Assembly (NCBI GenBank): GCA_025602915.1
Contig: JAHLJZ010000008.1
Coordinates: 434,001-498,000 of the forward strand
Direction of reading: 5' to 3'
Source: Paraphysoderma sedebokerense
Lineage: Eukaryota > Blastocladiomycota > Physodermatomycetes > Physodermatales > Physodermataceae
Length of the DNA stretch: 64,000 bases
Shown here: positions 22,568 to 61,794 of the stretch, in pieces
How the letters are laid out: the number at the start of each line of letters is the position of its first letter
Position numbering within the stretch: the first letter of the stretch is position 1
Translations under genes and position numbers: made by a program
The notes under the pieces: generated by a model
The model's input: the letters and a program-made list of their open reading frames with translations, nothing else
The model's database searches: none
Told to the model about the DNA's origin: nothing

Positions 22568-23914
22568 CTAAATTCCATTCAACCAATCCCTGTCTCCAAC
22601 AGTTCGTGTTCCCCAATCTCGGAGTTCACCTCTCTTTCCCTTTGCTACATTCTTCTCAAGATTTAGCGCTAACATATCCGAAAAGTACAGCGGATTGAAC
22701 ATTACAGCAAACGACCCCTCTTTCTCAATGATTTTTTGGTTACTCCAATATTCATTTTGAATAGCCGCCCTCAGCTCTAAGTCCGTGATTTTTTCCTTCT
22801 TATTTTTTGAGGGTGTAAATGCTTCAAAATTATCGCTTAATACCTTTTCTGCGACATCATCAGGGCCGCAAACCAAGATCAAATATTCAGAATGTTCAAG
22901 CGGAAATTTGATCTCCATAGATTGACCCCTGCGATACACATGGCTGATAATTACAGGCGATTTTAGCTGCCATTTGGAGAGATGTTGCTGCAAAATATCA
23001 ACTGCACCCCCCTCCCATACATGGGGAGTTGAGCGCGACAGAAGGACTTTATTCACTTTGGACCAGTGTCTCTTCGAAACGAAAGCTGAAGAGCAAATAA
23101 AGAAATCAGTTAAGCCCTTGGTAAAATTCGGATGTGAAAATTGAATCCGTACCGGCGCACATTGAGTAATCACAAGGGAGACTTGATGACTTTGATTCGT
23201 CTCCTCGTTGCTCGGGATCCGATTTATCCATTTCCTCATTTAGTTTTTGCATGCAGTCGTGATGATCTATCTTAAGAGTTATTTATATGAATCGTTCATT
23301 CTGAGTAAAGAGGTGACTTACAGCTTTCAGCCCTATACCGAGCGTCCTAAGTCAATAATGATATAATAATTAGTGGACGGACAGCTTTAATTGAGTTTAT
23401 TGAACTTAAAATTAAAAAGTAACCTCACCATTATGGAGTCAGTTACATAAATTCCTTCCCCTAGTCTATTCATTCCTGCTCTTGTCTCGGTGGGCACCGT
23501 AATTTTTTGTTGATCGTGATCGAAAAATTGATTAATTGTCCCATGAAAACCGACAAATTCCCAATCTTCAGAGAATCGGAGATCGATAGGGAATGAAAAT
23601 GGATTAGGCTCCCATATAGGTTTGATCGATTTGATACAGTTTTTCATCATAGTATTGATACACCGACCGGCAGGACTGAAGAGCGCCACTTTATATGTCA
23701 GATGGGCGATTTTACTCACATGCTCACCCATACCTGCCCTTACGACGACAGTGGGTTGCCGGTTGACTGCAGGCCTTACAGCAGGAATTGGATGGACAGG
23801 TGATTTGATATTGGAATTTGAAAGCTTTGAGGGTGTCTGCGGAGAGGGTATCACGACAGCAGTTCCGAACTGCATAAGCGCGAGAACGATAGACAGTTTC
23901 TGCAACAGCAGCAT
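22568..23914 (-). CDS. Secreted putative ADP-ribosyltransferase-like protein, paralogue 1
   Basis: Four exons (23429-23914, 23322-23346, 23153-23266, 22568-23085) sum to 1143 nt, 380 residues. The ATG at 23914 opens a signal peptide (LLLQKLSIVLALMQFGTAVV). Next come a Pro-rich stretch (VRPAVNRQP), a hydrophobic segment, and a core that resembles diphtheria/exotoxin-A-type ARTs: WEFVGFHGT (motif I, His-Gly-Thr), LGEGIYVTDSIM followed by DARYRAE on a 25-nt exon (motif II, Tyr and a second Tyr), and SMEIKF (candidate catalytic Glu). Such enzymes transfer ADP-ribose from NAD to a target; here neither activity nor target is known. Three Cys lie around exon 3 (DYSMCA). The last exon has AFVSKRHWS and ILVCGPDDVAEKVL, shared by all copies. 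It is the most diverged of the intact set in its C-terminal part. The ART reading is an inference from motif order; a lineage-specific secreted family is certain. Confidence 0.7.
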
Positions 23915-24652
23915 AATTCCGATATTAAAGGTTATCAGGTGGCTAAGAAATGAGTATGTATGTGCAACAGACCGGAGAGACTATTTGAAGTATCTTTGTC
24001 TCAGAGTGACACCCTTATAAAACTTGTTCCATCGAGCGTTTACATCCGCTTTTTATCGGGGTAGGGAAGTTTCAACTCTGACGTCAACCCCTAGACTTAG
24101 CATCAACTCCGTTACCTGGCTTAATCTCAGATAAATTTCCATATCTTTGATTTCCCTAGGCTTTAACTTTAAAAAAATGATATACTTTCGACAGCAGAAT
24201 GCTTGAAAGAAGTATTGTATTCTGCTTTCAGCATCTGTTCCTAAACCACCCTGCTACGTTGATCAGGCATTGGGTTCGCTAGCAGCCAAGCAATTCTCAT
24301 ATAAGTAGTCAGCTGTAATGTTAACGCCCAAGTTCTGTGATTATATTCAATAACGGCCCCAAATTGTAGCTTGAAAACTTTATTTTACAACCATGCTATA
24401 TTTTTATGGTATCACAAATTGACACCTTTATGATCATGTCAAATATTTGTCCAGCTCGTCGGATTTCCATCAATGGCAAAGGGCACAAGACATCATCATG
24501 TCATTCTGTGAGGGTGACTGAATCCACGCATAGTGAAGATTCAGAATTGAACTGAGCATCTATAGATTTGATTTCGTACAGCCGGTCGCCCCGGCCTTAG
24601 CAAACCAAAATTTATTAACCAATCGGTCTGGTAACAATCTTGGTTCGAATTC
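23915..24652. other. Intergenic region in the ART-like cluster
   Basis: No gene seen. From about 24240 onward the sequence is the 3' flank of paralogue 2 and is clearly similar to the 3' flank of paralogue 3 (about 31140-31490), marking the left part of a duplicated block. Confidence 0.6.
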
Positions 24653-26018
24653 TCATGCTTCATCTAGCCAGTTTGTATGGCCTACTGAGTTTATCTTCCA
24701 TGGACCAGAACCGCCACTTTGGCCCTTCTTTATGTTCGACTCGATACTAAAATCTAGCATATCTAAATAGAACGAAGGGCTGAATAATTTAGCAAATGAT
24801 CCGCGTCTCTCGATATTCTTTTGATTACTCCAATATCTATCCTGGAATCCAACACCCATCCCCGATTCAAAACCATTGCTTTTGGCGAGATTTTTCTTAC
24901 TTTTGGACAAGAAAGAATCCCAATCGTTGCCCAATACTCTCTCTGCGACATCATCTTCCCCGCACACAATAAGCATATGCTGTGAATGCTCGGGCACAAA
25001 TTTCATTTCCATCGTACGGCCTTTACGATACATGTGACTAATGGCTATCACTGGTCTTCGTGGGCCATTATTTTGATATCGATTTAAGTGATCGATAGCT
25101 TCTCCTTCCCAGAAGCCAGATGTTGTCCGGGATACGATGACTTTATCTGCGTTCGACCAGTATCTCTTTGAAATAAATGCTAAGAAATGATAATAAACAA
25201 TATCAGATAAGAATACAAAGTTGAACTTGGAATCACTAAGTACCTGCACACATGGCATAATCGCAACGCCGACCGGATAATAGTTCGTCTGCTTCTTCTA
25301 CTGTTTGATCACTTCCCTCGTTTTCTCGAAGACATTCGCGACGATCTATTAAAAATTTATTATTAATTAGTCGACAATGATCTATTAAACGTAAAAGAAT
25401 ATAATTACCAGTTTCGGCTTTGTAGCGTGCATCCTTGTGAAAATAAGCAGAGTTTGAGTCCAGAGCCAGCTAGAATGGCGAAATTTAAAAATAAGCACCA
25501 ACCATAATGGAATCGGTCACATAGAATCCAGTCCCTAATCTATTTGTTTCCATGCTCCCTTGATTGTTTATCATGACAGTGTTTCGTTCTTGATCCACAA
25601 ATTTGTTGATAGTACCATGGAATCCGACAAATTGCCAGTCTTCTGTGTCAGAAAAGTCTATTGGGAAGGAAATGGGCTCTGGCATCCATGTATCCAGAGA
25701 ATCGGTGGGTTTAGGCCAGATTTGTCCAGCAAAGATGGTTTTCATACATTGCTTAGCCATTGATTGAATACAAGCAACTGTGCCAGTGACCAGCATTGCA
25801 TTGAACGCAAAATGGGCAACATCAAAAATGTTCTCGCCCAAACCGGCCTTTGTTGCTACGGTCGGTCGTCGATTCAGAGTGGGTCTTACAGCGGGAACTA
25901 CAGGCGATCTGATATTGGAAGTTGATGGTCTTGTGAGTACATGCGAAGATGGAATCACAACAGTAGACCCGAACTGCAGAATAGCCAGAATAAAGGTGAA
26001 TCTCTGCAACAGAAACAT
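24653..26018 (-). CDS. Secreted putative ADP-ribosyltransferase-like protein, paralogue 2
   Basis: Four exons (25503-26018, 25409-25433, 25244-25345, 24653-25179) sum to 1170 nt, 389 residues. The first true ATG is 26018; the frame is open a little further upstream without an ATG. A signal peptide (FLLQRFTFILAILQFGSTVV) is followed by VRPTLNRRP and an internal hydrophobic segment. The ART-like core reads WQFVGFHGT, LGTGFYVTDSIM, then DARYKAE on the 25-nt exon, and RTMEMKFVPEHSQHM. Exon 3 carries RRECL and RRCDYAMCA, giving three Cys that may bond in the secreted protein. The C-terminal exon has YWSNQKNIERRGSFAKLF and ends WLDEA. It has exactly the exon lengths of paralogue 3 except for no difference at all (516/25/102/527), which shows a recent duplication. 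No frame problem is seen. The enzymatic reading is inferred, not shown. Confidence 0.75.
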
Positions 26019-26419
26019 ATCTGAGGTATTCACTATTGGACGGCGAAAAGAAAATTATCTTTCAAGTTCTGCGGGAAATTAACTCCATTTGTATGTCTGC
26101 AAATTGATTTCTCCTCGTTGAAGTACAGCAACATATGTCTCTTGCTATTCTTCCCGTTTCGGATCCCTGAACAAAACTTTGTAGGAGATCTGTTGCCCGC
26201 ATGATGGCATTGTTCGATTTCCAGCACGCGACTGTTTCACTTTCAACAACGAAGTCAAACCAGAAGAAATTTTTTGTCCCAACATCTGTTGCTGGTAACT
26301 TGGTACATTCCGTTTCAACAGAATCAAATATAATAGGGAATCAATTAATGAGATGATACGGGGCCCCCCTTTTAGCGGAGTCAGCTAGTAATTTGGTAAA
26401 CAGGTACTACTTCGTGCCA

Positions 26420-31497: not shown

Positions 31498-32876
31498 TTA
31501 TGATTCATCCATCCAGTTTGTATCGCCCAATGTCTTTATCCGCCATGGACCAGGACCGTCACTTTGACCATTCTTTATATTCGACTCAATACTAAAATCC
31601 AACAGATCTAAATAGTAGGAAGGGCTGAATAATTGAGCGAATGATCCTTGTCTCTCGATATTCTTTTGGTTACTCCAATATCCATCCTGGAATCCAACAC
31701 CCAGCCCCGATTCAAAACCATTGCTTGTGGCGAGATTTTTCTTACTATTGGACACGAACGACTCCCAATCGTTGCCCAATACTTTCTCTGCGACATCATC
31801 TTCCCCGCACACAATAAGCATATGTTGTGCATGCTCGGGTATGAACTTCATTTCCATCGTACGGCCTTTACGATACATGTGACTGATGGCTACGACTGGT
31901 CTGTGTGGGCCATTATTTTGATAACGATTTAAGAGATGGATAGCTTCTCCTTCCCAGATGCCAGAGGTTGTCCGGGATAAGATGACTTTATCTGTGTCCG
32001 ACCAGTATCTTTTTGAGATAAATGCTAGTACATAATAATAAACAAAGGAAAGAATTAGATTAAAGAGAAATAAAGTTTCGAACACGAAATCAACAAGTAC
32101 CTGCGCACATGGCATAGTCGCAACCTCGACGCGATAACAATTCGTCTACTTCTTCTACTGCTTTGTCTTTTCCGTCTATTTCTTGAAGACATTCATGCTG
32201 ATCTATTGGAAATGTTTTATTAGAAAGTCGATCTATAATACACTAAATATAAAAGACTTTAATTACCGGTTTCGGCTTTGTAGCGCGCATCCTAGTGAAA
32301 ATAGGTGGAGTTTTAGTCCAGAGTCAGATAGAATGGCCATATTTTAAAATAAGCACCAACCATAATGGAATCGGTCACGTAGAATCCAGTCCCTAATCTA
32401 TTTGTTTCCATGCTCCCTTGGTTGTTGATCATGACAGTGTTACGCTCTTGATCTACAAATTTGTTGATAGTACCATGGAATCCAACAAATTGCCAATCGT
32501 CTGATTCAGAAAAATCAATAGGGAACGAAATAGGTTGTGGCATCCATGCATCCAGAGAATCGGTGGGTTGAGGGGAGATTCGCTTGGGTATAATGGCGTG
32601 CACACATTCCCAAATCATTAAGCAGGCACTTTTAAATGTTCCAGCGACGACCACAAATTTGAACGCAGTTAGGGCACCATTGAAAACGTCCACCACCATA
32701 CTGGCCTTTGCTACGACCACTGGTCTTCGATTCAAAGTGGGTCTTACAGCGGGGACTACAGGCGATCTGACATTGGACGTTGACGGCCTTGAGAGAACAT
32801 GCGAAGATGGAATCACAACAGCAGACCCAAACTGCAAAATAGCCAGAATAAAGGTGAGTCTCTGCAATAGGAACAT
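31498..32876 (-). CDS. Secreted putative ADP-ribosyltransferase-like protein, paralogue 3
   Basis: Four exons (32361-32876, 32267-32291, 32101-32202, 31498-32024) sum to 1170 nt, 389 residues, the same exon lengths as paralogue 2. ATG 32876 opens a signal peptide (FLLQRLTFILAILQFGSAVV). The core has WQFVGFHGT, LGTGFYVTDSIM, DARYKAE on the 25-nt exon, and RTMEMKFIPEHAQHM; the C-terminal exon has AFISKRYWS, MLIVCGEDDVAEKVL and ends WMDES. Compared with paralogue 2 the region between the pro-peptide and the FHGT motif (about residues 60-105) has changed most, with different residues in the hydrophobic segment, while the core and C-terminus are almost the same. That pattern fits a conserved catalytic body with a freely changing N-terminal region. 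Activity and target are unknown. Confidence 0.75.
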
Positions 32877-33769
32877 ATCTGTGGTATTCACTAGTGGACG
32901 GCTAAAAGAAAATTAAATTTCTAAGTTATGTGGGCAACCAGATCCCTTTTTATGTCTACAAATTGATATCTCCTCGTTGAAGTACTACAATACACGTCTG
33001 TTGCTTTTCTCCCCGTTTCGGATTTCTGAATAGAACTTTGTATATTTTCTGTGCTCCGCATGTCGGGATTGTTCCATTTCCAGCACGCGACTGTTTCAAC
33101 AACAAAGTCGGACCGGAATTTTTTTGCTCCATCGTCTGCAGCTGGTAACTTGGTACATCCCGTTTCAAAAAGCATCAAATATAATAAGGAATCAATTAAT
33201 CCGATCCTAAGGGGCACCCTCAATTTCTGTGGGAAGTTTTACAAGCATCAGCATCTTAGGGAACACTGCAGTGTGTTTCATACATTCTTTGCATGCTGCA
33301 ATGGTAAATGGGATACCAAAGATATCAAATTTGCGTTGTGTGAGATTAATGTAACTTATTGTATCCTATTGCGCAGCTTTTTGCACCAACTTTCGAGCTT
33401 TGGATTACTCCTTAACCGGCTCCCATCCTGTAATGCTGAAATTAGGCGACTAGACTGTAACACCAAATTTTCATTTAGAGTAAAACAAATTACAATGATG
33501 CTATTAATTTTCCGGCTTATTTTTATTTACTTTTATTCATCCGTAAAATGACCTGCCGTCCTTGCCCACTAAGAGCCGCCGATTTCAGAAACTGTCCGAC
33601 CTGACCTTGAAGTGGAAAGGGATACAACCAATGTGTCTGCCCTCTTCCAAAACTGTCTAGACACGAGGCTGAATGAATTCATTTAATAAAAAAGTTAAAT
33701 GAGTCAGCTGGTTGGTAAGGTATTTATTGGACCCGAACAGATCAGGTAACACACTGGAGGCTCAGTGTA
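32877..33769. other. Upstream region of paralogue 3 and spacer to the relic
   Basis: The first 300 bases match the upstream region of paralogue 2 (26019-26340), so they probably include a shared promoter. A plus-strand frame of about 166 codons starts at 33051 but overlaps this duplicated upstream sequence and has no counterpart in the other unit, so it is not called. Confidence 0.5.
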
Positions 33770-34330
33770 GTGTCTAAATCTCTGTCAGATCTTTCTTTCT
33801 GCTCTATATCACGTTCTTACCAGTCTCGGCAATCTGTTGTGAATTAATTAATAAGAGTTATAGCTTACGTATTTATGAACGTACTGTTCTCTGCCCTATG
33901 GCGCGCATCCTAGCACAGATAAGGCGATAAGCGAGAAAAGAAGTAAATTAAACTGTTCAGTGGCGTAAAATCTTTTGCGTGCTTCTTGCATCATATAAAT
34001 AATTTGCAGTGCCGTCTGAGAGGGAACTACCTCTCTGGAACTGCAATCCGGACAGCAAAAATCACCTTCATAAATTCTTGATTATTGACTGAACTCACCC
34101 AACAGTCCCAGTGACAAGCAATGCATTACACGTAAATTGGGCAATTCTGGCAATCTCTTCACCCATATCGGCTTTTGCGACGAAAGCTGGTCTTCCATTG
34201 AAGGTGGGCAAACAGTCGGAGAACTGTGGATTGGTGACCTGATATTGGAAGGTCACGGTTTTAGCGAGAATTCGAAGAAGGAAGATCCTGTATTCGAAAG
34301 GGCTAGATTCGCAGTACTGGATATTTTCCA
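33770..34330 (-). pseudogene. Relic of an ART-like family member (broken), right copy
   Basis: This is the counterpart of the relic at 26420-27010. It keeps a recognisable pro-region block around 34130-34210 and pieces of the small downstream exons, but is broken with multiple breaks and lacks the C-terminal exon. Treated as a fossil that was copied together with its intact neighbour. Confidence 0.6.
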
Positions 34331-34595
34331 CTTCGGTTGACACCTGAGCTGAATGTATAATAAATCGAAACGATACAGTCAAGCCAGTCTAGGATAAACA
34401 CATATACAAGGATGCGATTGAATTTTTCTAAAGGGACGCAAGGATTATATGAGGGTGGACAGAAGTTTAGAATCTAAAAAATCTAATTGATACATTATTT
34501 GATTACATCGGTGATTACTTGCTACATAGTCAGGCACCTCAAATTTAATTATCGTTTGATCAGGACATAACGGTTGTCGGAAATGTCAAAAAATT

Positions 34596-35879
34596 CTATT
34601 CTATTACTTCGATAGCGCTGTTTGCTCGGCCATAGTCGGTCCAAGGTTTTTCCCCCGCAACATCAGGCACCCAGGTGCCTTCTTTCTCTCCGTCATTTAT
34701 CGCTTTCTTCAAATTCATCCCGATATTGAACTGCATCATGCGCGAATAGTACTTGCGTTCGAATAAGGCAGCGAATGGTCGCTCTAGTTCGTCCAAAAGG
34801 ATACTTCGTTCTACATTCTCTGCACCATCGTCGGGCCCGCAAACAACATGCATGTATTTCGCATGCTGGGGCATGAATTTCATTTCCATTTTATCTTCGT
34901 TACGATCCACATAGCTTATTGCTACTGCCACTCTTTCATCCAATTCTGCATGAAAAAGATACGAATCAAACAAAAGTTTTGCCCTTCGTTCCCAGTCGGA
35001 AGTTTTCGGAGATATGATGACTTTCTTAGCTTTCGCCCAGTATTTTCTGGATATAAATGCTGAAATAATCAAAATTGATTGTCAAAAAGTGAACAGAACG
35101 GCTTGTGACTGCAAAGCCATTTAAGTACCTGCACACATAGCATATTCACAATCGCTACTAGCTGATGACATTGCTTCAACGTCCTCAGATTCGACATCGC
35201 TTGTTCCCGGATTTTCGGCAAGACATTCTCTGCGACCTGTTATATGAATGAGTCAGAAAGTCTCAATTAATTTCCTAACAATTACTGAAAGGATAGTTAC
35301 TATTTTTGGCCCACTCGCGGGCAACCTAGTAAAAAACGAGTTTTAGTTCAATTAAACACAAGAATTCAAGCAGTGTATCAAACAAGAAACAACACAAACC
35401 ATTATAGAATCGGAGACGTAAAAACCTTCTCCCATCTTTTGCATAGCGGAATTGGATGCTGCTTTATCAAAAGTAATTGTACTTCGTTCCATATCGATAT
35501 GTTGTTTTATGGTGCCATAAAATCCCACGAATTCCCAATCATCCGAGTTGAGAAAATCAATTGGGAACTCAATAGCAGGTGCCTTCCAATCGGGTCGAGG
35601 AGAAACAGAATCACCATAATAGGAGTCGACGCATTTTTTGGCCAATTCGTGAGCACACTTCACGATTTTGGTGACAAGCGTAAGCTTGACGGCGAAGTCC
35701 GCCCCAATACCGGCTCTTGGGAGGACAACTGGTCTTCGATTCACAGTGGGTCTTACAGCGGGGACTACAGGGGATCTGGATGTTGAGGGCCCTGAGAGTA
35801 CATGCGAAGAGGGAATCATCATAGCTGACCCGAACTGCAAAAGGTACAGTAAAACGGCGAATCTTTGCACTAGCAACAT
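34596..35879 (-). CDS. Secreted putative ADP-ribosyltransferase-like protein, paralogue 4
   Basis: Four exons (35400-35879, 35301-35325, 35129-35236, 34596-35059) sum to 1077 nt, 358 residues. ATG 35879 opens a signal peptide (LLVQRFAVLLYLLQFGSAMM), then VRPTVNRRP. Core motifs are WEFVGFYGT (Tyr in place of the His of the FHGT seen in the others), MGEGFYVSDSIM and, on the 25-nt exon, VAREWAKN; the later motif KMEMKFMPQHAKYM keeps the Glu. Because the His of motif I and the second Tyr of motif II differ, this copy may be inactive or have another activity; it is otherwise whole, with all splice phases kept. The C-terminal exon is about 60 nt shorter than in paralogues 2 and 3. The exon layout 480/25/108/464 shows common descent. 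It lies at the right edge of the cluster. Confidence 0.7.
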
Positions 35880-38074
35880 CTTGCAGGTTTCGAGGGAGGC
35901 TGAGAACCAAAAAATAGGAAGTCTTGGTTGGATTTTCGGTAACTAGTATAGCTTCTTTCTTAACGGCTCTTGAGCGACATTTTTATAAGCATCAACTCAT
36001 CTCCTCAGTTTCGTGTTACTGAATAAAATTCGCGGATATGTTTTCTTGCGAACACGCGGCTGTTTCGGAACAAAGACAACCCTTGAAATTTTTGTTTCGA
36101 GCTCTATTGACGATCTGTACATTTCCAGCTTTAATGAGGAATCTGAATGCTGTGATAGGACAAGTGCTCCTCAGTTTGCGGAGTGCTTTTAACTCAAGAC
36201 CTCCGTTGTACCATAATATGGAGGACCCCTTGTATCATTTTTGCATGACGAATTAAGGACATGGGAGATGTTGAACAGAGATTTCAGTTTCTAAGGGATT
36301 GTTTCAACAGTAAAGCTCTAAGCATAGCCGGAATTACATCGGTTCTTGATATGTTTAAGCTTTCAATTCGGGCATTATCGAAGAATTGCTGGCTCGCCCA
36401 GGTGGCTGAATTCGGCTGTACTTGTACTATGTGAACTTTAATTCAACTTTTACCAGCCTTGGGCATTTTGATACCATTCAACTATTAACATTCTATTTTA
36501 TTGATTCTTTCACTAGCGTCGCCAAAAATTGGCTTTACGAAGATTATTGCATATCTGAATTTCTTTATCCCATAGTTATACCTTCTTGTACAAAGTCCAA
36601 GCAGCATCGCGGAAGGGTAGACGACGATCAGTTTTCTATTCTGAATATCAGTCAAAATAGATTCGGACTTTCGATTGACTTTCATCAGCGCCGGTGGAGA
36701 CATAGATTCGGTTTAAATCCGTTCTTCAAAAGCGATGACAAAAATGACGTTTCTTTGCACAAAGAGTGCCCACATCGACTGCCGCCCGACATTCGAAAAC
36801 TCTGTAATTCTGGGCTTTTGACATTACAGACTAACACGAATGCTCACATCATCTTTATGATTTTCAGTTTATGTCAGATCGAAAATATTTATCTCATCGG
36901 CTTATTCATAGGAAGCAATACGGCTTGGAAATTGCGAATTCTGTCCACCATCAATGAACCGAATGTACTTGCCTTCCCGACCGATGTTTCCATCTTAAAT
37001 CTCTCAACAGGCATTTCCCTCAGAAGTTGTACCTTAGAAAAATGTAAATACATTCAGCAGGACGATTTTTGATGTTATCACTCAAAATGACATATATCAC
37101 AGATGCGTTTGAATTCACGTTGTAAGCGGTATCATTGCGTGCCGGCTCATGAGTTAGTAGTCCGAATGTAAGGCCCCATTTTATATGGAAATTATTCTCA
37201 CCAAATCCTCTTGCAAGGCTTATACTTACCGCTTGACCTTATTCTAGGAAATGATGGTAACGGCCGAGGAAATAGCGAACTTTTATCAATCTTTTTAGCC
37301 CAGAAAGCCGACGAGAATTATTAAACTTAAAGTTACTTTATGCGGAGGAATATTAGAGTCAAGTTGAGTCAAGTCATTCACTTTCGCTGATCCGTCGCAT
37401 CAAATTTAATTGCCACCACGTCTTATTCGTCGTACCGAGTTTCATCATTGCCACACCTCGTAAGTCTTAAATCGATGCTCGTGGAGCGTGGATCCACTTC
37501 AACCTCATCGAATCATGACGATCAAGAACCCAAGTGTTGTGGCAAAATCAATAAGCTTTAAACTTATGCTAAAATGACTGCTCGAGCTTTTTTGGCGATC
37601 ATTCAGCAAGTTGAGTTTGAGAGGTTGCATTCCCGCCGACTGTTTATTCTTTTATTTTCCATCCTACAGTATCCCCGATGTTCGTAGATTTTGTTGGGCT
37701 GGATTGTGCATCTAGTTTTCTCATACCATGACAGGAATCACCTATATCGGTTCGCTTCTAACGCAACCCGTACAGTATTCGCGTTTAGCTATGAAGTGGC
37801 AACCGTTCGCCACAATGATTGTATCCGTTTAAGGCTATTTTAAGTTTAATCGTTCTTGGTGCCAAACTTTGGACAAAGTTGTCGAAATGTTTCAGTTAGC
37901 ATGAGTAATCAGATACTAAAATAATAGTTAATGTATTGAACAAAGGAACAAAAATAAAATTCTTCTGTAATGTACTCGTCAAAATATTTTCTATTTTTCA
38001 CTTATTATAACCAACATTAAGCATTCATAACATATACTTAGTAATACATAATCCACTTATTTACAGTATCAAAG
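35880..38074. other. Gene-poor stretch with one unassigned plus-strand frame
   Basis: No recognisable gene. An open frame at 36422-37072 (216 codons, first codon ATG) is longer than most chance frames here. Its product has a hydrophobic stretch (IIFMIFSLCQIENIYLIGLF) and several Cys but no family motif; the bases downstream to 38060 are AT-rich and without frames. It could be an orphan gene, a decayed element or chance. Confidence 0.3.
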
Positions 38075-46739: not shown

Positions 46740-47348
46740 TCCCACGCTCCCACGCCCATCGGAAAAAACATTTCCTTAAATACGCACTCCCTCTCTCCAC
46801 CACTCCATCCCTCTCTCAATCCCTCCCTCTCTCTCGCCATCACTCCCCCCCTCTCCCGGTCGCTGTCCTAGCTTCATCCTTTAGTTGTAAGTCTCCCTCT
46901 CAATGTCTCCAGTCAATTCCGCAGTGGGACGCGGGAACATCCCCCTCCCATCCTTGCGCTTCTTCCTCTTGGCGGACAGTTCTGCATCGTCAAGCAGATG
47001 CATCCTTCACACTCGATCCGCTTTGTATAGAGATCCTCTGCGATCCTTCCTCTTTTTGTTGGCGTTTGGCGTGCATGACTACGTGCGGCCCGCTGAACTT
47101 TGTTTGTTTGGGCCCCCGAGATCATCGGTTGCCAGCATAGTCCCTGCCATACTTTTTCTTATGATTCGAGACTTTAGAGCCATTCTATGATTTGGGGATT
47201 TGTTTTTCAACTTATTTCTGATTCCCTGCCTTCCAATTTTTTTTTGTTGTTGTTTTGTCCCTCTTGATCCCTCGTTGCCACGCCCGTTGTGTTCACTCGT
47301 CCATTAACCATGTCGCGTCTCACTTTTTACCGCTCACAGGAATCAACA
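46740..47348 (+). promoter_or_regulatory. Pyrimidine-rich promoter and probable leader intron of the C9-methyltransferase gene
   Basis: The stretch 46780-46860 is strongly CT-rich (repeats of CTCTCTC and CCCTC), as seen before start sites of highly expressed fungal genes. A donor GTAAGT at 46887 and an acceptor at 47337-47339 after a T-rich run would make a 453-nt intron in the 5' leader, placing the start codon at 47349. Evidence is sequence pattern only. Confidence 0.5.
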
Positions 47349-49088
47349 ATGACCGTCGAAACTCTTGATGTCGAATATTCCGAGTTCTGGCAAACCAGCG
47401 AAATTAACGCTAGGAACGCCAAAAGAACAACCGTACCCGTCCCTCCCTATCCCGTGCACGGCGCCGGTTTCCATCAATTCTCTTCAAACCAGTTGTGGGC
47501 TGTCACCTTTGGCTCCCCAGCTGTTCTCTTGTATCTTTTCTCCATATCGCTGAAATGGTACCCCATCGCTCTCCTCCTCCTCGGCTTCCCTGCCTTTGCC
47601 CTCAACTTCTACATGACTTCACAATACATGTCTGCTCCCCCATCAGATATCAAACTGCCCGGTAAACCCCTTGAAGAATACATGGAAATCAAAGACCCTG
47701 AACTTCGCGCCAAATACCATGGCTACACCAAAATTCCCATAGAAACTGCTTTTGAAGCCTACTTTGATGGAAAACTTGACTTTAAAGGAGACATTTTTGA
47801 AGTATTCGAACGTCGTTATGATTGGGCTTCCTTCAACTTCACCGCTAGTCACGTTAAATTCTTTTTGACTCAATGGATCCCTGAAACCATCTGGCATTCT
47901 CGTAAACAAGACGCTGATCAAGTCCGTGAACACTACGATCGTGGTGATGATTTCTACGCTGGTTTCCTCGGCCCCCGTATGATTTACACCTCCGGTAACA
48001 TTAGCAACCCCGACAAACGCGAATCCCTTGAAGAACTTCAGGACAACAAATTGGAACTCGTCTCTAAACTCATGAAATTCAAACCCGGTGACCGTCATCT
48101 CGATATTGGTTGCGGTTGGGGTACTCTTGCTGTCCACGCCGCTAAAAATTACGGAACTCAATCAACTGGTGTTACACTCGGCCGTAATCAAACCGAATTT
48201 GGCAGCCGCAGAGCCAAGGAAAATGGTGTTGAAAATAATGTTAATATTTTATGTATGGATTATAGAGATATTCCCAAGCAAAAGTTCGATAAGATTACCT
48301 GTTTAGAAATGGCTGAACATGTCGGTGTTCGAAAATTCCAAGATTTTTTGGTACAAGTTAGAGAAATGATGGAAGATGATGGTTTGTTTTACCTGCAAAT
48401 TGCTGGTTTGAGAAGGTACGAATATTTTCTATTCCGTCAATTCTATTTGTTCTAGCTGATATCTGACTGTACTTGTCTTTTGTTTATTAGACCGTAAGTT
48501 GACGAAAATTCTTTGAAGGCCACCTTATTGCTGATTTCTCATTTTAACTCTTGTCTCTTATCTCTTTTCTGTTGATGTTCTCCCATATCTAGTTGGACGT
48601 AAGTGTTATACATTCTTACCAAATTTGCCATGATTCTTTCTGACTCGTTCATTCATAGTTTTGAAGACTTCAATTGGGGTCTCTTCATGGCCAAGTACAT
48701 TTTCCCCGGTGCCGATGCTTCATGCCCTCTCAACTGGTTCGTACTATTCCCCCATGTCAATACTACAATCCACCGTTTTTAACACTTTCGTCTGTCTGTC
48801 TTTAGGGTTATCAACCAATTAGAATACGCCGGATTCGAAGTCCAAACCATGGATACCATCGGTGTTCACTACTCTGCCACCATTGAGCGTTGGTACCGTA
48901 ACTGGCAATTCAACAGAGCCAGATTGGCCGAACGTTACGACGAAAGATGGATCCGTGTCTGGGAAATCTTCTTGGCTTGGAGTTCCATCATTGCCAGACA
49001 AGGTAGCGCCACCTGCTACCAAATCGTCGCCCACAAGAACACCAACAAATTCAATAGAGTGGGTTTGACAATGAAGAAGGTGGAGTAA
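47349..49088 (+). CDS. Sphingolipid C9-methyltransferase (CFA synthase family), with 3-nt and 6-nt microexons
   Basis: The enzyme adds the C9 methyl group to the long-chain base of fungal glucosylceramides using S-adenosylmethionine, at ER membranes. Exons: 47349-48415, 48491-48493, 48593-48598, 48659-48736, 48806-49088. Two hydrophobic segments (LWAVTFGSPAVLLYLFSISL, WYPIALLLLGFPAFALNFYM) are followed by the methyltransferase: REHYDRGDDFYAGFLG, MIYTSGNIS, the SAM motif HLDIGCGWGTLAVHAA, CLEMAEHVGVRKF and YLQIAGLRR. The segment PWTFEDFNWGLFMAKYIFPG needs two microexons (ACC and TTGGAC) to be read; without them the conserved W and FED are lost. The end has YSATIERWYRNW and SATCYQIV. Codon choice favours C-ending codons in the first half, fitting high expression. 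A start at 47310 is possible if the leader intron is not used. Confidence 0.92.
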
Positions 49089-54377: not shown

Positions 54378-57300
54378 TCATTGTACCATTTTTTTCTCCA
54401 CATCATAAACAAACCGTTTAAATCGTAACTCTAACCACGGTTTCACCATTTCTTTTTCCTCTAACACCTTTTGTTTCGTTTCGTTGTCATCTTGAGGAGT
54501 GGGGACCTTTGATTTAGACTTTTCTTTATCCCGTTTGAATTTGGACTTTGATTTTGATTTGGATTTGGATTTAGACTTCGACGTTGTTGTTTGTGACTCG
54601 GGTTCGGGAAGTATAAGGTCACTATCCTTATCGTGATGATTTGTTCCTTCTATTTCGACTTTTTCTTTTTCTTTTCGTTTTTTCTTGGATTTTGGGTCCT
54701 TTGTTTTTCTTTTTTCTTTGGATTCTTGTGATGATGATTCTGGATTGATAAATTCAGAATCATTATCGGGAGATGGACACACCGGTGTTGGGAGATTGTC
54801 CGTTATGTCGTTTGACGTGGAGGTTAGGGATAGAGGAATGGCGGGTTTGTCGGTCTCATGGTCAATTGATATTTTGAGTTGGTGGAGGTCATTGGACAAG
54901 TTTGTGTCGCTCGTGGAGTTGGAGTTGGATTCACAGGTCGGAAGAGTGGGGTTTGGAAGTAGATTGGTTTGGTCGGGGACGGTGGCTGAAGGGTAGGGTG
55001 TTGTTGAGACGGTAGGGTTGGTTGTGGAGTCGAGAGAGGTAGTGGGTGGATCGAGCTTGGGAGTTGAAAATGAGGTATCTTTTGTTTTATCTTTTTTCTC
55101 TTTTCTTTCTTTCTTTCCTTTCTTTTCCTTTTTCTTTTCTTTATCTTTTTTCGGTTTTTCGTCTTTGTGTTCGTCTTCTCCATTAAGAGCAACAACTAAA
55201 TTCTCCACTTTTTCTTTCTTTTTTTTCTCTTTTCTTTCCTTTCTCTCCCGTTTCTTTCGTTCTGCTTCTACAGCGTCAGGATCATGGTCCATATTCTCAG
55301 CGTTCCTCGCGACAAAGTTGAAGTACTCCAAAATGCTAGTGTGGATTCCCTCGGGTACATTCACAACAAATTTACCGGATGTACCGAACCGCGATTCTAT
55401 TGTTCCTGCTTGACCTGAATATCGCGTTCAAAAGCATCAATCAGGAATCCAAAAATGAAAATACGAGATATCATCGGTGCGACATGTACGAATGCGTGAG
55501 TCGTGAACCAACAGGAAAATGTGTGGAAGAAAATATGATGTTAGGAGTACAAACCAGAAGGTAATATCTCAACTTTCATTCCCAAAAATAAATCCATGTT
55601 TGTCGTCTTTTTGAATAAATCTGATCCGATTATTTTGTTGTTATCCACAACTCGATCAATTGATCCTACTCTACTTTTCCATTTGAAAATCTTCAAGTTT
55701 GATAGGGTCGTTGTTTTATAGGATTCATTCGTAAATGGATGTAAAATGTGACCATGGAATGCTAGCCTACACGTGTTGATATCTGATATGTGAAGTTAAG
55801 GTTTAAGGATTGTCCCGAAATAAAACAATGCACGGATAGCTAGAATAATAGAATATTAGAGGATTGAGAATAAAAGGATACGAATGTCAATGTCTAGTTT
55901 ACTTCCTATTATTAAACTTCCATTCAGACCAGTGCATGGATGCTCAAATTCAATCAAAGCATAATAAGATTTTCTTGCGTCGGTCTCTTGATCGGTTTGT
56001 TGTCCCAGTGAAGATTCGTACAAGTAGTCATTGCTGAAATTAAAGGTCGATGTCGTTAAATGGGCTATATCTAGAATGGTACAAGTAACGGTAAATTAGC
56101 CAACGTTGTCTTTTGACATGCGTGAAGGGGGGTTCACTTACCTTCCGGCGATTGAGAGTCTGTGACTGGATTTTCAACGGCAGAAGAAAAGAAAGATACA
56201 TTTGCTATCGTTGTTTCATGACCGACGGTGACTGATAGACCCATTTTAAGTTTGTTGACTTATATGAATCATTGGGCGAAAACATACCATGAAATTTACT
56301 GTGTGATTTTATATCACCCTTATAATACCTAACCTTGTCTACTTTTGCGATGGCGGCATACATAATTCTTACAATGCCTGGAGCAGCCACTAGCCCTCTT
56401 TCGAAAGATTTAGTGTGATCAAATTGTGTCACCAACATCCCCACACGATCACCTTGTACCGCTCTTTGAATGGATTTCTTAAACATTTGTAATCCCTTTA
56501 CTTTTTTGGTCACACGCATAGATGGTACCTCAACTGTATCATTGACAGAAACAGATCCTGATAAAACAGTGCCCGTCATGACCGTGCCTTTGCCTTTAAT
56601 TAGGAAACAGTGGTCGACGCTAAACAAAAATGGTCCGGAAGGGTTACGCGGCGGAAGGTTGATGGAATCGGATAATGTCGACAGCAAGGAGTTTAGGTGA
56701 AGCGTTTGTACAGATTCAGAGTCGAATGATGAGGATGAAGCCACGTTAGCGGAAAGTGAGATGATGGGACTTGACGCGAATTTTGTCGTTGAGAGCGCTT
56801 TTTGTATTTGTTTCGTTACCTGATACGTCATTCATAATATTGATCATTAGCTGGAAGAATAATAATTGTCAGGGAGAGAAATAACGACGACTACCTTTTG
56901 GGTATTTGCTTCACGTTCCCTTTCAGGAAACAGATCAATTTTATTAAGGACTACTATCATTTTGTCGGTAGTTATCTCCCCGATCACAAGGCATTCCGCA
57001 GTTTGTGTCTGTATTCCCTTGGTAACATCTATTACCAGGATCATAGAGTCGATGATTTGGGCACCTATGCCGTAAAGAGTGTTAAAAAGAGTGTTAACGC
57101 TATCCAATCAAAAAGTGTGGGGTTTCCACTGAACCGGTGCACGCTACCTCCGATGATCGTTTTTACGAGACTTGCATGTCCGGGGCAGTCGACTAGAGTA
57201 ATTTGAATTTTGTCATACGGTGAATCTATCCAAAGCAAGTTACAATGTAGAAGATTGTCAATTTGGTGCGGCCCGAGGTCGTGATCAAACGTGAATTTGA

Positions 57301-57626
57301 ATAGCCTTTCAATATACCTTTGAGGTGAGGAGGAATATCGAGAAGAAAAGCAGAAAATCCTAGATCCAGAGTGATCCCTCTTTGTCTACTCTGAGGATGC
57401 TTATCCAGGGACGCAGTACTCCGAATCTGAGTAAGCGCTTTTGCTGTCAACGTCGAAAGCGGTGCCTGAGTTAGTTTTGAGGCCGTATAGATGAATGAAA
57501 CGGAAATTTGAATAACTGTAATATCAATTTACCGAGAGAGGTTTTGCCAGAGTCTACATGGCCGACGATACCAATATTGACGTTCAGGATCCTCGGATCT
57601 GACGGTGTCTTATCAGAAGAAGACAT
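54378..57626 (-). CDS. Selenocysteine-specific elongation factor eEFSec (SelB-like GTPase)
   Basis: eEFSec brings Sec-tRNA to the ribosome at UGA codons that carry a SECIS element. ATG 57626 starts NVNIGIVGHVDSGKTSL (G1); splicing from 57533 to 57465 continues APLSTLTAKALTQIRSTASL, DKHPQSRQRGITLDLGFSAF (switch I). Then ITLVDCPGHASLVKTIIGG (G3), QIIDSMILVIDVTKGIQTQT, and VVLNKIDLFPE (G4). Domains 2-3 lie at about 56205-56831 and below: PFLFSVDHCFLIKGKGTVMTGTVLSG, GDRVGMLVTQFD, ERGLVAAPG, then VTVGHETTIANVSFFSS. Domain 4 follows: YYALIEFEHPCTG, IGSKLDIDI, NTCRLAFHGHIL, LFKKTTNMDLFLGMKVEI, FGTSGKFVVNVPEGIH and the final LELRFKRFVYDVEKKMVQ. Every block matches animal eEFSec in order, including the C-terminal FKRYVFDTHKRMVQ. 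A lysine/serine-rich low-complexity insertion of about 280 residues (54450-55300) interrupts domain 4. About eight exons; borders between 55400 and 56200 are approximate. Confidence 0.93.
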
Positions 57627-58085: not shown

Positions 58086-59581
<1,496 letters not shown>

Positions 59582-59883: not shown

Positions 59884-61322
59884 TTAAATTACACCTGCTT
59901 TATACACATATTGACAATAGTCCTCCCACATTGCATTTGCAATAGCATCCCGAAGCCTGTAACCCTCCTGAAGTTTCCCATCTTGAATTGAAGTTTCAAT
60001 CTCATATTCTTCATCTTCTATGCTATCACCGGCATTGTTATCAGCAATCCGGTCGATGCTGTCGAACTCTTCATAGAATTCGTCCTCGCCACATTCCCTT
60101 TTGATGAAGTTATGAAGACCGCAGAGCGCCAGAACCAGTTTAACTTGCGACCGACGAGGCAAATTCGTGGCATTTGTCAAAACTGGAAATCGCTTCTTTA
60201 ATACTCCAAATGTTCGCTCAGCGTTGTCCCGTAAAGATGAGTGCCGTAAATTGTACAACTCTTTTGCATTTCGCGGCCTAAAAGTTAATTATGATTATCA
60301 GATTGATACAGAATGAAATCATAAAGTTCAGAAACATGCCTTTCTTCAGTATCGTCCGATTCCCGTCGATGGTACCTCACACCACGATATGGTGTTAAGA
60401 CCTTATCCGAAATGCCATGGCCCGCGTCACCTAAGTAGTATTTACCGGCCGGTACTGCGAAGCCTTTCGTATAGGCACTATTCAAAACCATCGCATCAGT
60501 CGCAATTCCCTCCCAACCAGCCAAGACGTAGGAGAATAGACCATCGAATGTAACTGCAGCGAGCACATTTTGGGAGTACCACCCTTTTCGGTTTCCAAAC
60601 GTCATTTTTTCGTCAGCGAAGGCAGGGATGTGTGTACAGTCTAATACACCCAGACAGTCTTTGAAGTACGGAAAAAACTTTTGGCTATTTGCAATTCTAG
60701 TTGGGACAACAGAAGGATCCGGTAAACTGATAACGGTAGAATTAAAGTCGACAAGAGCATCAAGGATGGTATTAATATATCGGGATATCGTTTCCCCCGA
60801 ATGTTGAAACCGTTTTTGTAAAGTGCGATTTGTCATTGACGGGGCAATAGAGTTGAGGAAAATAAATAGTTGCTCTTCTACCCTCACTTTACGGGAATCC
60901 TTCAGATAGCCCCCTTCCTTCATGATTCTACATAGTTTACGAAATGTATTTAAATCCATGCGACAAAGTTCATATATCAGTTGAGAATCGCCGTTCAGAA
61001 AATCGGATACGAAACAGGATCCGGTGTCGTCACTGTCATCATCCTCATCCTCCGACATGTAGTTCTCATAATAAAAGACGGCTGTAGTGGCAGCAGCGAG
61101 GACAGCCGCTAGAACTGCATCGTCAACGGAGTCAGAGTCTATATCAGTATCCGTATCGGTAGATTTTAAGGAATCGGTTGAGGGAGAATCAGATCCAATA
61201 GACGATGATCCAAGTGAGTCGAAGTCAGAGTCCGTTTCCATAGATTTTAAGGAATCGGAACCAAGTGAATCGGAACCAAGTGAATCGGAGGTCTCAGAAG
61301 AATAACTAGCATCGGATATCAT
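59884..61322 (-). CDS. PIF/Harbinger transposase (DDE_Tnp_4), with a probable GC-AG intron
   Basis: DDE transposases of the Harbinger family cut and paste DNA; domesticated members (HARBI1-like) also exist in hosts. Two exons, 60340-61322 and 59884-60277, about 458 residues. The N-terminus is a Ser/Asp/Gly-rich repeat (SDSLGSDSLGSDSLKS) and acidic stretch, unusual for the family. The body has ELCRMDLNTFRKLCR, LFIFLNSIAP, RTLQKRFQHSGETISRYI (helix-turn-helix region), then the catalytic parts CLGVLDCTHIPAF (first D), YSQNVLAAVTFDGLFSYV, GWEGIATDAMVL (second D), KYYLGDAGH, LTPYRGVRYH, RDNAERTFGVLKKRFPVL (third acidic residue, E) and LCGLHNFIKREC. The junction AG/GCATGT...TTTAG/G restores ERPRNAKELYNLRHSSL, so the donor is GC. 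I could not recognise terminal inverted repeats within 300 bp on either side, so mobility is unproven. Confidence 0.88.
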
Positions 61323-61794
61323 GGTATAAAGTATGAAATAATAAGAAGTTATTGCTAGTTTGTAGTATTGCTCCCATGGCCAGCATATTTATCTTACTTC
61401 CTAAATACGCCAATACTTCGCCGGTATCATGGCCATCTCGCGATTCTCCAAGCGCGCCTTCTCAGTTCCCTCGATCTAGTCAACGCAAACTGTGGATATT
61501 CGGCCAGGAAAAGATTTATCTCCTAAAACAAATTAAACTGCAAAGGTATCTTTCAATGAAACACTTTGCTGCAAAGATGGGACATTTAGCCATCTAAATA
61601 TAATACATTTATTCGAGTACGGGTAGAAAATTCTTGATGGATGATTTCAGTCTGAATAATTAAAGTCATTGACATTCACCGTATGCTAGCCTAATTGCTC
61701 AGAATAACATTCCGGCGTTACAAAACTGAGGCGGTACCTCACTACCATCCCAAACTACAACTATAATTAAGTTGCGGGATCTCATAAACAGTAC

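Follow-up and report, generated by a model that had tools for sequence, protein, structure and literature searches.

We suggest that the gene for the selenocysteine (Sec) elongation factor eEFSec described here is a gene of Paraphysoderma sedebokerense and part of a complete eukaryotic Sec system, for which vertical descent is the simplest origin, and we give this reading a probability of roughly 0.92. P. sedebokerense is an alga-infecting water fungus, which the NCBI taxonomy places in Fungi, Blastocladiomycota, Physodermatomycetes. The stretch of DNA analysed, hereafter the window, comprises 64,000 nucleotides and corresponds to positions 434001-498000 of contig C8 in an assembly of 27.29 Mb in 195 contigs.

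The minus strand of the window contains an intact eEFSec at 54378-57626, and this is a real gene. According to the splice model, the gene consists of nine exons, with the ATG at 57626 and the stop codon ending at 54378, and its coding sequence of 2544 nt is translated into a product of 847 amino acids. The eight introns are all of the GT-AG type and are 56-140 nt long; an earlier version of the junction between exons 1 and 2 was a non-canonical splice and was replaced by a later acceptor, which gives GT-AG. Exon 1 (57533..57626) contains the start codon and the P-loop GHVDSGKT and agrees with Pfam as well as with the GT-AG rule, and the three following exons carry RGITLDLGF (exon 2, 57318..57443), DCPGH (exon 3, 57148..57225) and NKID (exon 4, 56895..57064). 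Exon 5 (56288..56819) encodes the end of the G domain, domain 2 and the start of domain 3, exon 6 (56142..56231) and exon 7 (55882..56070) continue domain 3, and exon 8 (55555..55782) enters domain 4 with NTCRLAFHG; Pfam matches support the splice model in these four exons. The remaining part of domain 4, a linker of 315 amino acids (54423-55367), the C-terminal FKRFVYDVEKKMVQ and the stop codon are all located in exon 9 (54378..55414).

In the translated product, the G1-G5 motifs appear in order (GHVDSGKT at residue 22, RGITLDLGF at 53, DCPGH at 86, NKID at 140 and SAN at 179), and FKRFVYDVEKKMVQ at residue 834 forms the C-terminus. Pfam assigned GTP_EFTU with 108.7 bits and GTP_EFTU_D2 with 37.6 bits, which are the domains of an EF-Tu-like GTPase, together with the eukaryote-specific domain 3 euk_SelB_III (PF21208, 118.6 bits) and the C-terminal RIFT domain 4 eEFSec_4th (PF21131, 79.3 bits), both with a cut-off of 27. 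When we compared the product with solved structures, the top match was human eEFSec (5izk, E 1.2e-160, residues 12-527), and the last 20 residues align to the human C-terminus, a stretch that is without significance by itself. The nine-exon model, Pfam and 5izk therefore bear out the initial annotation, which had described a complete eEFSec at exactly these coordinates with its motifs and domains in order. The protein is predicted to bind Sec-tRNA-Sec and to cooperate with SBP2.

A feature beyond the earlier description of the gene is the length of the linker in domain 4. It comprises 315 residues between the GKF motif and the final FKRF strand, and 61% of these are K/R/E/D/S/T. Since both motifs lie in exon 9, the linker is not a product of splice choice, and it is most likely a disordered spacer. 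We searched for eEFSec homologues within a length range of 0.55-1.75, and the 120 listed of 2270 homologues are 520-627 amino acids long. Both motifs could be located in 99 of these 120, and the linker in these homologues has 43-58 residues. The highest identity among the 120 homologues listed was 53%, and no protein named Paraphysoderma appeared among these best 120 of 2270; eEFSec is either absent from the deposited annotation or has a model there outside the length range searched.

For the placement of the contig, we used a sphingolipid C9-methyltransferase gene, a long open frame on the plus strand (47268..48452) about 6 kb from eEFSec on the same 571-kb contig. Its product matches a P. 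sedebokerense protein at 97%, and in a tree of 25 proteins hand-chosen among the 120 matches listed, Catenaria, Allomyces and two Blastocladiella, all Blastocladiomycota, form its sister group with support of 100/99. This placement, which covers the eEFSec contig alone, indicates that the contig belongs to P. sedebokerense (Blastocladiomycota), and it is in line with the earlier view of the window as fungal. The Sec genes are spread over ten contigs when duplicates are counted (C2, C4, C8, C12, C63, C72, C86, C94, C107 and C153), and the GC contents of nine Sec loci are 0.406-0.424, with 0.412 in the window.

The initial annotation had also predicted that the rest of the Sec machinery would be found elsewhere in the genome, and tRNA-Sec, SecS, PSTK, SBP2 and SPS are all present in the same assembly. 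In the whole-genome search, tRNA-Sec was located at C2:223324-223409 with 72.5 bits against RF01852 (gathering score 47). ARAGORN called it SeC tca with the anticodon TCA, and the RNA has both the UCA anticodon and the long arm. All 14 control genomes gave some match to RF01852, with 5 of the 14 above the cut-off, and therefore only a score above the cut-off counts; a second whole-genome match in P. sedebokerense (39 bits) turned out to be an ordinary tRNA-Ser. SepSecS was found as 14 matched stretches on three contigs (C63, C72 and C153), with a best score of 88.4 bits and a cut-off of 21.1. Over 6,873 bases there is no difference between the copies on C63 and C72, and the copy on C153 is about 93% identical. 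For the PSTK gene on C107, the top NCBIfam model was eukaryotic PSTK with 73.3 bits, under the equivalog cut-off of 382, and the top PDB match was L-seryl-tRNA(Sec) kinase (1.2e-6). A gene on C18 gave a stronger match than this one and was set aside as a separate KTI12-family gene. Genes for SecS, PSTK and SPS are thus all at hand, with the PSTK and SPS profiles scoring under their whole-protein cut-offs.

The SBP2 component of Sec decoding is encoded at C12:339765, one of 11 L7Ae-domain matches in the genome, by a gene of four exons and 989 amino acids. When residues 1-375 were searched against 177,635 PDB sequences, human SBP2 was the sole match at E 0.01 (5.7e-11), and residues 199-312 align to residues 631-744 of the human protein. 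The same frame continues into C-terminal ankyrin repeats (Ank_2 75.6 bits; L7Ae 33.6 bits), and the protein also carries an acidic Ser-rich tail. In addition, judged by eye against the human sequence, the L7Ae region presumably has an insertion within its second half. The deposited protein P0241 equals our gene model residue for residue over 130-989, ankyrin fusion included, and of 823 candidates it was the sole protein to reach E 0.01, in a search that missed even other SBP2s. Since that search reached no other SBP2s, uniqueness of the ankyrin fusion is not implied. In the literature searched, no paper mentions SECIS-binding protein, SBP2 and ankyrin jointly. Judged by sequence, the fusion of SBP2 to ankyrin repeats and the long eEFSec linker look like an unusual architecture.

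At least one selenoprotein had been expected from the intact eEFSec, and we found three genes with a TGA at the Sec site and a SECIS-like element downstream. Seven selenoprotein families were searched in the genome, and the Sec-site TGA was found in three of them, SPS2, TXNRD and SelenoK. The spliced start of SPS reads FRLTNYSDLKG-TGA-GCK/VPQEELL with the TGA at the canonical site, and the gene is present in two copies, on C94 and C4, that are identical across 3,553 bases. TXNRD on C12 is an animal-type thioredoxin reductase that splices to SGC-TGA-GGT-TAA and ends in SGC-U-G; its glycine codon following Sec is interrupted by a 78-nt intron. The profile matches of SPS and TXNRD were to individual exons, and none rose above the whole-protein cut-offs. 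SelenoK on C86 reached 26.6 bits with its profile (cut-off 23.3) and splices to RLGRISH-AGSCSLPAAG-TGA-GGT-TAA, ending in AAG-U-G. We take the TGA positions in TXNRD, SelenoK and SPS2 to be the known Sec sites of the animal proteins. No Sec TGA was seen in GPx (NVASKCG), which has a second copy on C14, in Rdx/SelenoW (CTGC) and in SelO, with the readings covering one GPx copy and SelO up to its end region; for MsrA, the absence of a Sec TGA was judged by stop counts alone.

Four SECIS-like hairpins lie 3' of the coding regions of both SPS copies, TXNRD and SelenoK. They have a stem of 11-12 bp, an A-rich apical loop and a UGAN/NGAN core, which is the shape of eukaryotic SECIS elements. A strict scan, which required UGAN and NGAN, a stem free of interruptions and an apical loop carrying AA close to its 5' side, found one 11-bp element each in the 3' regions of SPS C94, SPS C4 and TXNRD. 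With both strands counted, the same scan at a stem of at least 10 bp found no element in the 128 kb of the window or in the 137.8 kb of ten other loci, and at least 9 bp gave none in the window and one in the ten loci. Lowering the minimum to 8 bp yielded no element in the SelenoK locus and a single one of 9 bp in locus L072, on the strand opposite SelO. The SelenoK element, located 134 nt past the TGA with 12 bp and one one-base bulge, was first spotted by eye, and a scan that allows one bulge and requires AAA was designed afterwards. This bulge-tolerant scan returned the SelenoK and both SPS elements, missed the TXNRD element and, with a stem of at least 10 bp, had no hit in either the window (128 kb) or the ten other loci (137.8 kb). 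A scan based on RNAfold returned TXNRD and both SPS elements, gave none in the window and missed SelenoK.

When we searched the elements with Rfam, SECIS_1 matched the TXNRD element with 26.1 bits and E 0.29 (4227 families), under the gathering score of 35; the SPS and SelenoK elements were unreported, and no element reached the gathering score. The whole-genome search with the SECIS family RF00031 gave no match with 133 of 518 candidates scored, and it missed the TXNRD element, since that element later scored 26.1 bits. The fold z-scores are modest (-2.65 for SPS C94, -1.49 for TXNRD and -1.75 for SelenoK). Beyond the stretch over which the SPS copies agree fully, their alignment of 228 columns shows 18 mismatches and 3 gap columns, and all three differences that fall in the SECIS stem keep the pairing. 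We also built a covariance model on three of the SECIS elements, which recovered those three in 15 sources, with other matches at E 5.8-9.4 only, and missed the SelenoK element. A MAFFT alignment of the four elements was discarded with TXNRD and SelenoK out of register. Based on these observations, P. sedebokerense appears to use an animal-style SECIS signal, and its SECIS-like elements are of the consensus type.

From these genes and signals we infer expression of the Sec genes, and insertion of Sec by the standard eukaryotic route is very probable. Following the established biochemistry, SerRS would charge tRNA-Sec(UCA) with serine, and PSTK would phosphorylate the serine on Ser-tRNA-Sec. 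Selenophosphate would be made by SPS2, and SepSecS would exchange the phosphoserine for selenium. Finally, eEFSec-GTP would bring Sec-tRNA to the UGA codons of mRNAs that carry a 3' SECIS bound by SBP2. Since SPS2 is itself a selenoprotein, there would be feedback on the selenium supply, as in animals.

Here, we need to consider that the machinery may persist as a decaying remnant after Sec insertion has ended, with the TGAs being ordinary stops or pseudogene lesions. The limited number of Sec genes, in three of the seven families with the other four lacking a Sec TGA, would be consistent with such decay. However, three unrelated genes, each with a SECIS-like element, have their TGA where Sec is known to stand, and the three stem differences between the SPS copies all keep pairing amid 18 mismatches over the 228 columns of the flank, so that we regard a remnant as very unlikely. 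Acquisition of the Sec system by horizontal transfer, rather than inheritance, gains some support from the protein database, which holds Catenaria, Allomyces and Blastocladiella, yet none of them is named among the 120 eEFSec matches listed. Against this, six machinery genes, now on different contigs, would all need transfer, and loss in the relatives is simpler; we consider transfer exceedingly unlikely. A 2019 abstract by Mariotti reportedly describes a pattern of repeated loss of Sec in fungi, which agrees with loss in the relatives.

The identity of the eEFSec homologues also bears on contamination of the assembly by an alga, an animal or another eukaryote. The named closest homologues among those listed are animal, bar one protist record, at 46-53% identity, and no fungus-named eEFSec occurs among the 120 of 2270 listed, as might be expected of a foreign source. 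The top identity of 53%, however, means that there is no near donor among the matches listed. The two outcomes that had been named in advance as counting against a fungal Sec system, an assembly without the other machinery and a contig placed outside fungi, were not seen: the machinery is present, and the C9-methyltransferase about 6 kb from eEFSec on the 571-kb contig groups with the four Blastocladiomycota at 100/99. In addition, ten contigs carry Sec genes, nine loci share the GC of the window, and the SBP2 on C12 (491,823 bases) is deposited under Paraphysoderma. Because of the neighbour tree, the uniform GC and this deposited SBP2, contamination has a next to negligible probability. We favour a Sec system that P. 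sedebokerense itself inherited, and such a set fits inheritance from an opisthokont ancestor with many losses.

Selenocysteine use has been lost in most fungi, and fungi were long considered to be without it. Most fungal selenoproteins reportedly lack consensus SECIS elements, according to the 2019 abstract by Mariotti, and a 2022 abstract by Amses is said to map selenocysteine use across zoosporic fungi, so Sec in P. sedebokerense may already be in print. In the literature searched, we found no paper that treats Paraphysoderma and selenocysteine together. Sec use in early-branching fungi is already published, as the available excerpt of PMC11378755 gives the machinery for nine fungal species in three phyla, Chytridiomycota, Zoopagomycota and Mucoromycota. 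In the excerpts of the other sources, PMC10778597 speaks of only nine known Sec-using fungal species, PMC7988114 names six of the nine, PMC10386755 counts seven of the nine as Harpellales, and PMC12611240 describes SelenoH as common to Harpellales. Two proteome surveys of 2021 still stated, in the parts available, that fungi are without selenocysteine (PMC8559351, PMC7988114), and the accessible text of PMC8559351, PMC7988114 and PMC10386755 reports no Sec for Blastocladiomycota. A Sec set in Blastocladiomycota would add a phylum to the list as excerpted in PMC11378755. The Sec system of P. sedebokerense is ordinary in mechanism and uncommon in lineage, and specialists are most likely to be interested in its ankyrin-SBP2 and SECIS elements. 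The ankyrin fusion offers a naturally occurring test of which SBP2 parts are required, and P. sedebokerense, which can be grown axenically according to the excerpt of PMC11797010, is a fungus suited to testing Sec insertion. More tentatively, at a little short of even odds, Blastocladiomycota may have kept an ancestral animal-type Sec system with the consensus-type SECIS that would be largely altered in other known Sec-using fungi, while the ankyrin-SBP2 works with the eEFSec of the long charged linker in a remodelled decoding complex. If this is true, the apparatus for UGA recoding would have a distinct architecture in that complex.

Detailed comparison with known systems reveals both likenesses and differences. 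The eEFSec shares four domains with the human protein (5izk, 7zjw_E; aligned over residues 12-527), while the linker that precedes the final strand of its domain 4 has 315 amino acids compared with 43-58 in 99 of the 120 homologues listed. The SECIS-binding region of SBP2 aligns with that of human SBP2 (7zjw_B), whereas the in-frame ankyrin repeats and the acidic Ser-rich tail are features of the P. sedebokerense protein. TXNRD, SelenoK and SPS2 match the profiles of the animal families and presumably each share with them the position of the TGA, while the C-termini of P. sedebokerense are SGC-U-G in TXNRD and AAG-U-G in SelenoK, and the TXNRD intron falls within the glycine codon that follows Sec. 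With Harpellales, Gonapodya and Bifiguratus (Mariotti 2019, via the excerpts of PMC10386755, PMC12611240, PMC11378755 and PMC7988114), P. sedebokerense has the machinery set and the scattered occurrence in common, but it belongs to a different phylum, Blastocladiomycota, which the excerpted list of PMC11378755 lacks. Finally, the three selenoprotein genes of P. sedebokerense have SECIS-like elements, one of them recognised by Rfam, in contrast to most selenoproteins of the other Sec-using fungi, in which a consensus SECIS is reportedly missing.

Two genes of the selenocysteine (Sec) machinery, as well as two redox genes, are present in more than one copy in the P. sedebokerense assembly. The SecS copies on contigs C63, C72 and C153 and the SPS copies on C4 and C94 are identical or nearly identical in sequence, while the two GPx copies on C14 and the two MsrA copies on C17, which lie 11.5 kb and 18.9 kb apart, respectively, have equal scores. 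These duplicates are recent duplications, haplotypes or assembly artefacts. When the two SPS copies were compared, 3,553 bases including the coding region were identical, whereas the 3' flank bearing the SECIS-like element showed 18 mismatches and 3 gap columns in 228 columns. This difference may stem from gene conversion or from selection acting on the coding sequence.

The SBP2 gene on C12 (338932-342111; 3933-7112 in the excerpt L066) encodes SBP2 fused in frame to ankyrin repeats and to a tail that is acidic and rich in Ser, and its deposited entry, BKA69DRAFT_1173694, is annotated only as a hypothetical protein. The same contig also carries the gene of the predicted Sec-containing thioredoxin reductase (143012-145212), about 194 kb away. 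The Rfam alignment of tRNA-Sec (1501-1586 in the C2 excerpt L001) revealed two non-standard pairs in the acceptor stem. A U-U mismatch is usual in eukaryotic tRNA-Sec, and one of the two pairs looks like it.

In the window, four pairs of long ORFs, mutually similar by eye, are located on the reverse strand at 22571-26054 and 31501-35942, and the upstream member of each pair contains a WEFVGFHGTI-like motif or a variant of it. A Pfam search with two of these ORFs gave no match. The encoded proteins may resemble secreted proteins of the ADP-ribosyltransferase type. On the right-hand side of eEFSec are exons judged by eye to be Rab6-type GTPase-like (58086-59438, forward strand) and a DDE_Tnp_4 transposase gene (60288-61388, reverse strand).

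Domain 4 of eEFSec itself contains a Lys/Ser-rich linker (54423-55367, reverse strand), which comprises 315 amino acids in P. sedebokerense compared with 43-58 in the 99 homologues measured among the 120 listed.
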